DNA of 64,000 bases from Succiniclasticum ruminis DSM 9236. Lineage in GTDB: Bacteria; Bacillota; Negativicutes; Acidaminococcales; Acidaminococcaceae. Shown piece by piece: positions 3,119 to 5,188 of the stretch (its first letter is position 1; the number at the start of each line of letters is the position of its first letter). A model generated the notes under the pieces. The model searched no databases and was not told where the DNA came from. It worked only from the letters and a program-made list of their open reading frames with translations. Position numbers and translations under genes: made by a program. The DNA is taken from assembly GCF_900112895.1 (NCBI RefSeq), contig NZ_FONL01000011.1, positions 1-64,000 on the forward strand, written 5' to 3'.

Positions 3119-3940
3119 ATGAATACAGAAATGACGAAACCTGGGGAGACGCTGGACAGCCGGCGTCTCTTTAAATATGATTTGATCATCCTGGCCGGCG
3201 GGGCGGGCACGGTTACCCTGCCGGGGCAGGGGGAACGGGCCAGGGCGCTGGCGGAACTGAAGGGCCGGCGTCTGCTGGATTATATCGTGGACGGCGTGCG
3301 GAAAAGTTCGCGTATCGCGTCCGTGGTCCTGGTGACCCACAGCGCGCATCGGGAAGCGTTCCGGCAGGCGGCCGTTCCGGGTCTTCTGTTATGCGCCTGT
3401 GACGGCAGCATGGCGGAATGCGCGGCGGCGGCGATCCGGAAACTGCAGGAGCAGCCGGGGCATGAAAATATTACAAAAGTTGCAACGGTATGCGATGACC
3501 TTCCGTTTCTGACCGGCGAAGCCCTGGACGACTTTATTGCCCGGGCGGAAGCGGCGGAGGCGGACGGGGTCTATGCCATTGTGCGGAAAGAAGCCTGTCT
3601 GCGGGAATTCCCGTCGTTGCGTCGCACGTTCTTTCATTTAAAAGAAGGTGATTTTACCGGCGGCAATGTTTCGCTGGTTTCCGTAGATTTATTTCCGGGC
3701 TGCATCGAAAAGATGAAAGAGGTTTTTGCCCTGCGCAAGAACCCGGTGAAACTGGCAGCCTGGCTGGGCCCTTTCTTTATTCTGAAGATGCTTTTGCATC
3801 AATTGTCTCTGGAAGATGTGGAGAAAAAGGTCTCGGACCTGTTCGGTTACCGGGGCCGGGCCGTTATCACGGATCACGCCTGCATCGGCACGGATCTGGA
3901 TAAGGCGGAAGAATGGTCGGAAGCGGAAAAGTATTTGTAA
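3119..3940 (+). CDS. MobA/GlmU-like nucleotidyltransferase domain protein
   Basis: 273 residues with an N-terminal nucleotide-binding segment LIILAGGAGTV near residue 23, then ELKGRRLLDYIVDGV, and a putative metal-binding VCDDLPFLT near 124, in the order seen in NTP_transf_3 proteins. The usual LAGGxGxRMG loop is stretched, with the arginine delayed (AGGAGTVTLPGQGERARA), so nucleotide specificity cannot be inferred. The C-terminal part after residue 180 is helical and unassigned. It sits between the GntR regulator and glmU, and the glmU promoter overlaps its stop codon. A role in activating a sugar or cofactor is plausible but unproven. Confidence 0.7.
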   Translation: MNTEMTKPGETLDSRRLFKYDLIILAGGAGTVTLPGQGERARALAELKGRRLLDYIVDGVRKSSRIASVVLVTHSAHREAFRQAAVPGLLLCACDGSMAECAAAAIRKLQEQPGHENITKVATVCDDLPFLTGEALDDFIARAEAAEADGVYAIVRKEACLREFPSLRRTFFHLKEGDFTGGNVSLVSVDLFPGCIEKMKEVFALRKNPVKLAAWLGPFFILKMLLHQLSLEDVEKKVSDLFGYRGRAVITDHACIGTDLDKAEEWSEAEKYL

Positions 3941-4050: not shown

Positions 4051-5019
4051 ATGGCAAACTTAACGGCGGTAATTCTCGCGGCAGGCAAAGGCACACGGAT
4101 GAAGTCCAAACTGCCCAAGGTATTGCATAAAGTAGGCGGGCATCCCATGCTGGAGCATGTGATGGACGCGGCGGAAGCGGCAGGCTGCCGTGACAACGTG
4201 GTAGTGATCGGCCACGGCGCGGAACTGGTACGGGAACTGGTAGGCAGCCGGGCCCGGATTGCCCTGCAGGCCGAACAGCTGGGGACTGGTCATGCGGTGC
4301 TGCAGGCGGCGGATACCCTGAAAGATTTTACCGGCACGGTGATGATCCTGTGCGGCGACACGCCGTTATTGGAAGCGGAAGAGCTGAAGAAGTTTTACGC
4401 GGAGCATGTAAAATCCGGCGCGGCGGCCACCGTAATGTCCGCCATGATGGAAGATCCCTTCGGCTACGGCCGTATCCTGCGGAACGCCAACGGGGACGTG
4501 GCCGGCATCGTAGAGCAGAAAGACGCTTCCGAAGAACAGAAGCTGATTAAGGAAATCAACACCGGAAACTACTGTGTGGAAGCCCCGCTCCTGTTTGAAG
4601 TGCTGCGGACACTGGGCAACAATAACGCCCAGGGCGAGTATTACCTGACGGACGTGCTGGCCAAACTGCGGGCCATGGGCAAAAAGGTGGGCGGTGTGGT
4701 CACTGCCGACAGCGAGATGATCATGGGCGTAAACAGCCGCCGCCAGCTGGCCGAAGCGGAAAGCGTCATGCGCCGCCGCATTCTGGAAAGACTCATGGAC
4801 GAAGGCGTAACGGTTATGGATCCGGCATCAACCTTTATTGAAAAAAGTGTAAAGATATCGCCAGATACCACCATTTATCCGTATACCTGGCTGCAGGGGA
4901 AAACCGTGATTGGGGAAGACTGTGAGATTGGTCCCAATGTGCGCCTGGAAAACGTGAAAGTGGCAGACGGATGCCGCTGCGGGTTTACCCATATGCATGA
5001 CTGTGAAGTGAAGAAATAA
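4051..5019 (+). CDS. glmU: GlmU-type N-acetylglucosamine-1-phosphate uridyltransferase, lacking the acetyltransferase domain
   Basis: 322 residues, whereas bifunctional GlmU is about 450-460. The uridyltransferase half is complete: LAAGKGTRMKSKLPKVLH (9-26), the CGDTPLL metal-binding segment, FGYGRI, EINTGNY and NAQGEYYLTD. After about residue 258 only three or four turns of left-handed beta-helix follow (VKISPDTTIYPYTWLQG, then IGEDCEIGPNVRLEN), and the frame stops at TAA 5017-5019. The part of the helix holding the GlcN-1-P acetyltransferase active site and the C-terminal tail are absent. No frame in 5020-5188 continues it. ATG 4051 has AAAGGAG upstream. It should make UDP-GlcNAc for peptidoglycan and lipid A, but acetylation must come from elsewhere. 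Confidence 0.88.
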   Translation: MANLTAVILAAGKGTRMKSKLPKVLHKVGGHPMLEHVMDAAEAAGCRDNVVVIGHGAELVRELVGSRARIALQAEQLGTGHAVLQAADTLKDFTGTVMILCGDTPLLEAEELKKFYAEHVKSGAAATVMSAMMEDPFGYGRILRNANGDVAGIVEQKDASEEQKLIKEINTGNYCVEAPLLFEVLRTLGNNNAQGEYYLTDVLAKLRAMGKKVGGVVTADSEMIMGVNSRRQLAEAESVMRRRILERLMDEGVTVMDPASTFIEKSVKISPDTTIYPYTWLQGKTVIGEDCEIGPNVRLENVKVADGCRCGFTHMHDCEVKK

Positions 5020-5085
5020 GGAAGCATAAACTTATTTAGAAGAAGTATAAACATATTTAACCCATTTTTTCCGTAATAAAAATAC

Positions 5086-5115
5086 TTGTAGGAAACAGGG
5101 GATTTGGTATATACT
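5086..5115 (+). promoter_or_regulatory. Putative prs promoter
   Basis: -35 TTGTAG (5086-5091) and -10 TATACT (5110-5115) with an 18-nt spacer, about 70 nt ahead of the chosen prs start. It lies in an AT-rich 169-nt gap after glmU. Confidence 0.55.
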
Positions 5116-5188
5116 AAATAGGGATTTTAAAAAAGAACTTTGCGGCAAGTCATTTCAGGAATCCATGGGAGACGGGGAGGAAGTCCAA

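Follow-up and report, generated by a model that had tools for sequence, protein, structure and literature searches.

The glmU gene of Succiniclasticum ruminis

The window, a 64,000-nucleotide stretch of Succiniclasticum ruminis DSM 9236 (contig NZ_FONL01000011.1), carries on its forward strand a glmU gene of 322 codons (4051..5019, stop codon TAA) followed by prs. The gene comprises the uridyltransferase (N-terminal) domain, approximately residues 1-227 (4051..4731, forward strand), and a beta-helix stub of ~70 residues (approximately residues 250-322; 4798..5016, forward strand), so that the protein ends inside the early beta-helix. Its match to GlmU models ends near model position 318 of 450, and it scores below the equivalog cut-offs of TIGR01173 (359.6 versus 366.85 bits) and NF010934 (418.7 versus 450).

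An initial annotation of this DNA had described the uridyltransferase half as intact, the beta-helix as ending at residue 322 with the acetyl-CoA site and catalytic His missing, and the region ahead of prs as holding no frame that restores the lost domain; all three points stand. In an alignment to E. coli GlmU, 15 of the 16 uridyltransferase residues checked are kept (L11, A12, A13, G14, G16, R18, K25, Q76, G81, T82, D105, G140, E154, N169 and N227); at the position of Y103 there is a Cys, as there is in full-length relatives. The same alignment retains none of the seven acetyltransferase residues (R333, K351, H363, Y366, N377, N386 and K392), the protein ending before all of them. The C-domain of a full-length congener, used as a tblastn query against the window, found no acetyltransferase-domain coding DNA between glmU and prs, where that coding region lies in full-length relatives; it matched only the stub itself and, weakly, DNA at ~48.7-52.4 kb whose ORFs we take to be LpxD and LpxA. 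Because the 145-nt gap before prs (5020..5164, forward strand) resembles the glmU-prs spacing of full-length relatives (64-167 nt, with one of 251), the C-terminal coding DNA has been removed, not interrupted.

With bifunctional GlmU (TIGR01173) the window protein thus shares an intact uridyltransferase domain, the glmU-prs gene order and recognizable first beta-helix coils, but it lacks the acetyltransferase domain, and we regard it as a natural single-function uridyltransferase. Its closest engineered counterpart is an E. coli GlmU of 331 residues with a solved structure (PDB 1fwy). Directly upstream of glmU lies a 273-aa ORF (3119-3940) with no NCBIfam match at E ≤ 1e-10, presumably MobA-like at its start.

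GlmU length and evolution in the genus

Nine of the relatives, whose GlmU lengths the initial annotation had proposed to compare, share the truncation. GlmU measures 251-341 aa in ten species-level Succiniclasticum genomes (that of S. ruminis, G000, and nine congeners), against 469-476 aa in three congeners (G004, G008 and G009) and ~451-457 aa in other family members. Among the truncated proteins, the length is 322 aa in G000, 321-322 aa in G003, G006, G012 and G013, 334 aa in G005, 339-341 aa in G002, G007 and G011, and 251 aa in G001, where no beta-helix is left. Midpoint rooting of a tree built on the N-domain places the truncated genomes in one group that excludes the three full-length congeners, with moderate support for several splits.

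Strong purifying selection acts on the N-domain within the truncated clade (dN/dS 0.03-0.07); for the stub, dN is approximately two to four times that of the N-domain, whereas in the full-length species dN is similar in the two regions. A strongly constrained N-domain beside a faster stub is the expectation if the uridyltransferase is in use while the stub decays. In one further genome (G010, assembly 93% complete) glmU was not found, although the foreign cassette described below is present; the gap is probably a missing contig.

A stand-alone acetyltransferase candidate

The initial annotation had concluded that acetylation of glucosamine-1-phosphate (GlcN-1-P) must fall to a different protein or route, and had named a separate hexapeptide acetyltransferase as something to search for. 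Searching with the C-domain of a full-length congener, we found a putative one, a GlmU-C-domain-like ORF of 220 aa (G000:C27:3956-4618), in agreement with that conclusion; neither of the outcomes that the annotation had named as contradicting it was seen. The ORF is separated from nagB upstream by 3 nt and from glmM downstream by 4 nt, and the order nagB-acetyltransferase-glmM recurs in G001 and G011. Of the 11 genomes in which glmU is truncated or was not detected, 8 have a candidate of ~220 aa (G000, G001, G002, G007, G010, G011, G012 and G013, the G013 copy being cut at a contig edge); none of the three full-length congeners has one. G003 has a terminal fragment only, and no copy was found in the fragmented assemblies of G005 and G006.

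By sequence, the candidate has left-handed beta-helix hexapeptide repeats (PF00132, 48.9 bits) and no fused nucleotidyltransferase domain. It keeps the equivalents of E. coli GlmU R333, K351, H363, Y366, N386 and K392; across homologues, R333, K351, H363, Y366, A380 and N386 are matched in 37 of 37 and K392 in 36. At the N377 position the 18 closest homologues have His, and the others nearly always Asn. These residues suggest that the candidate acetylates GlcN-1-P with acetyl-CoA.

No curated NCBIfam model claims the candidate above its cut-off. Among solved structures it is closest to a Sulfolobus sugar-phosphate nucleotidylyltransferase (5z09, 2ggo), in the C-domain of that enzyme. This C-domain of the archaeal dual enzymes (Sulfolobus tokodaii; TIGR03992, Arch_glmU) aligns over residues 45-199 with the same His, Tyr, Asn and Lys positions, but the candidate lacks their nucleotidyltransferase domain and is below the TIGR03992 cut-off (144 of 292 bits). 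It also scores 110 bits with TIGR03991 (alt_bact_glmU), which has a related hexapeptide acetyltransferase part; there the two domains are fused in one protein, while here they are encoded by two genes on different contigs.

Gene content was assessed by targeted searches, and the survey for replacements covered hexapeptide proteins. Three other sources of the activity were considered and rejected. No second full-length glmU, to which the initial annotation had drawn attention, was found in the genome; the C-domain of the full-length congener detected no close free-standing copy of the native domain in the truncated genomes; and the remaining hexapeptide proteins, LpxA and LpxD among them, are shared with the full-length congeners.

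Replacement of glmM and glmS

The nagB-acetyltransferase-glmM operon behind a glmS ribozyme is a foreign cassette, and both glmM and glmS were replaced in the truncated clade, a change beyond what the initial annotation could see. The clade's glmM is 84% identical to that of G100, a member of another class, versus ~43% to native family glmM, and in G100 the neighbouring acetyltransferase and nagB genes (82% each) adjoin glmM. The acquired GlmM and NagB score above the cut-offs of TIGR01455 (542.4 versus 447.55 bits) and TIGR00502 (367.7 versus 236.9 bits), respectively. Searches for nagB came up empty in the full-length congeners and in four further members of the family.

G015 and G008 (the latter with an insertion before glmM) show the ancestral order argF-argG-argH-cdaA-cdaR-X-glmM-glmS, where we take the arg and cda names from reading the genes and, for cdaA, additionally from PF02457. 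In the truncated clade the block ends at X and native glmM and glmS are missing, with no remnants of either at the old site at E 1e-6. Where contigs show it (G002 and G005), the foreign cassette is just before argF. Loss of cdaA along with the operon was ruled out, since cdaA is present in all 18 genomes tested.

A glmS match was likewise found in 18 of 18 genomes, which means that the clade continues to make GlcN-6-P and needs an acetylation step. The clade's glmS is located elsewhere in the three truncated genomes examined, adjoining a glutamine synthetase-like gene, and is only ~51-52% identical to native glmS, whose copies are 80% identical between two genera. Its closest sampled matches reach merely 57% (G437) and 56% (G128), both in acetyltransferase carriers, and we therefore name no donor for it. 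In S. ruminis the divergent gene adjoins both glutamine synthetase-like and LL-diaminopimelate aminotransferase genes (L255 8455-12381, G000:C21).

A glmS ribozyme outside the glmS leader

A predicted glmS ribozyme with a conserved core precedes the nagB operon of S. ruminis (L141 2949-3098, G000:C27; RF00234, 61.9 bits versus a gathering threshold of 37). All seven contigs tested, from six truncated genomes and G010, have it in this place (42.9-68.4 bits). To our knowledge, nearly all glmS ribozymes in published surveys are located in glmS mRNAs, and the native arrangement (G015 and G008) has the ribozyme between glmM and glmS; in the clade, however, it stands ahead of nagB-acetyltransferase-glmM, and searches ahead of the clade's own glmS in three genomes gave none. 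A hidden copy before glmS was sought in S. ruminis at a lax threshold, and there is none.

Other genomes have related arrangements. In G100 the ribozyme is ahead of an acetyltransferase-nagB-glmM cluster, and G342, which belongs to another family, has one of 114 bits upstream of glmM-acetyltransferase-nagB. By eye, the core of the cassette ribozyme is closer to that of G100 than to native ones, consistent with transfer of the whole unit. Loci L142-L147, L260 and L266 likewise have the ribozyme ahead of nagB, acetyltransferase or glmM operons, not glmS.

Association among Firmicutes

We drew 399 Firmicutes genomes evenly and called carriers of the stand-alone acetyltransferase at E ≤ 1e-15. There were 32 carriers (~8%), and a GlmU C-domain was detected in 371 genomes. 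The C-domain is missing from 23 of 32 carriers, spanning 14 families, versus 5 of 367 non-carriers (present in 9 and 362, respectively; Fisher p=1.8e-25, ignoring shared ancestry). Restricting the sample to genomes at least 90% complete leaves 21 carriers without and 8 with a C-domain, and 1 non-carrier without and 327 with (p=2e-26, ancestry again ignored). Four of the five non-carriers without a C-domain have assemblies 72-79% complete; two of the five, G393 and G452, were identified by their absence from the sequence of listed genomes.

Many carriers do have a GlmU, but one that stops at ~242-367 aa, and the acetyltransferase gene is often kept beside glmM and/or nagB. Nine carriers keep the full C-domain, so the presence of the free enzyme does not force its loss. 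Seven carriers (G089, G130, G168, G201, G216, G329 and G456) have no GlmU, not even the N-domain, at E ≤ 1e-20; with assemblies of G201, G329 and G456 at least 99% complete, these may use another uridyltransferase or a divergent one.

A probable split of GlmU and its alternatives

GlmU is usually viewed as a single two-function enzyme and an antibacterial target. We consider it very probable that in this clade it is a single-function uridyltransferase, its C-domain having been replaced by a free GlcN-1-P acetyltransferase from the acquired cassette; the missing acetylation is most likely performed by this stand-alone, horizontally acquired 220-aa enzyme. The data establish the truncation, the gene content, the conserved residues, the synteny, the replacement of genes and the association across Firmicutes; enzyme activity, substrate, donor and the sequence of gains and losses are deduced from them. 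The clade would have acquired the glmS ribozyme, nagB, acetyltransferase and glmM as one cassette, probably from Firmicutes outside its own class. The acquired GlmM would supply GlcN-1-P, the hexapeptide enzyme would turn this into GlcNAc-1-P, and the GlmU N-domain would then convert GlcNAc-1-P to UDP-GlcNAc. Once acetylation was covered, the native copies of glmM and glmS would have been lost along with the acetyltransferase domain of GlmU, and the leftover stub would be eroding, with an end point that varies among species. Most likely it was the acquired free acetyltransferase, which came together with its mutase, that made the domain dispensable. Counting against this explanation are the His at the N377 position in the 18 closest homologues, the mere gene fragment in G003 and the failure to find the gene in G005 and G006.

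A literature search limited to openly licensed papers turned up no account of Firmicutes with GlmU divided in this way. In this genus an essential fused enzyme appears to have come apart naturally: full-length and split forms coexist, and one particular protein is predicted to take the place of the missing half. The pairing of truncated GlmU with a free acetyltransferase recurs in many Firmicutes families, and a stand-alone family named by no curated model that we used gains a testable predicted function, GlcN-1-P acetyltransferase. The glmS ribozyme, moreover, is found ahead of genes other than glmS.

Of the competing explanations, the one that survives best, though improbable, is a eukaryote-like order of steps, in which the stand-alone enzyme acetylates GlcN-6-P first and the acquired GlmM is a GlcNAc-phosphate mutase. 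The gain of the acetyltransferase together with its own mutase would suit such a swap, but the GlcN-1-P acetyltransferase-site residues of GlmU are kept and the acquired GlmM scores as an ordinary bacterial one (542 bits versus 447.55). It is very unlikely that a different acetyltransferase, GNAT or hexapeptide, supplies GlcNAc-1-P and that the protein flanked by nagB and glmM has another job. The genome does hold further hexapeptide proteins, the group that our survey covered; these, however, recur in full-length congeners, and the candidate alone tracks the truncation, both within the genus and across Firmicutes, with fitting residues and neighbours. Still harder to credit is a clade that needs no acetylation and lives off scavenged GlcNAc: nagB is often a salvage gene and rumen bacteria can meet peptidoglycan fragments, yet the clade keeps a full glmS and a glmM, as expected of de novo synthesis starting at fructose-6-P. 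An artefact of sequencing or assembly, or a dead gene, is practically negligible as an explanation, for although most clade assemblies are fragmented, ten genomes share the truncation with several distinct stop positions, no C-domain DNA precedes the conserved neighbour prs, and the N-domain has its low dN/dS.

Tentatively, and with more doubt than belief, we suggest that the cassette forms an autonomous pathway to GlcNAc-1-P driven by ammonia. In it NagB would run in reverse to make GlcN-6-P from fructose-6-P and ammonia, a direction that the ammonia-rich rumen would favour; the steps of GlmM and the free acetyltransferase would follow, and the ribozyme would stop the operon when GlcN-6-P accumulates. 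We speculate that the ribozyme's control logic fits best if NagB makes GlcN-6-P. Such a route, if real, would explain why the ribozyme guards nagB instead of glmS, and why a separate glmS stands beside a glutamine synthetase-like gene, as a possible low-ammonia route.

Close to the cassette, a ZMP/ZTP riboswitch was also seen near a purH-like gene (L144 4569-4645, L146 4357-4433, L147 4425-4501 and L259 15433-15509).
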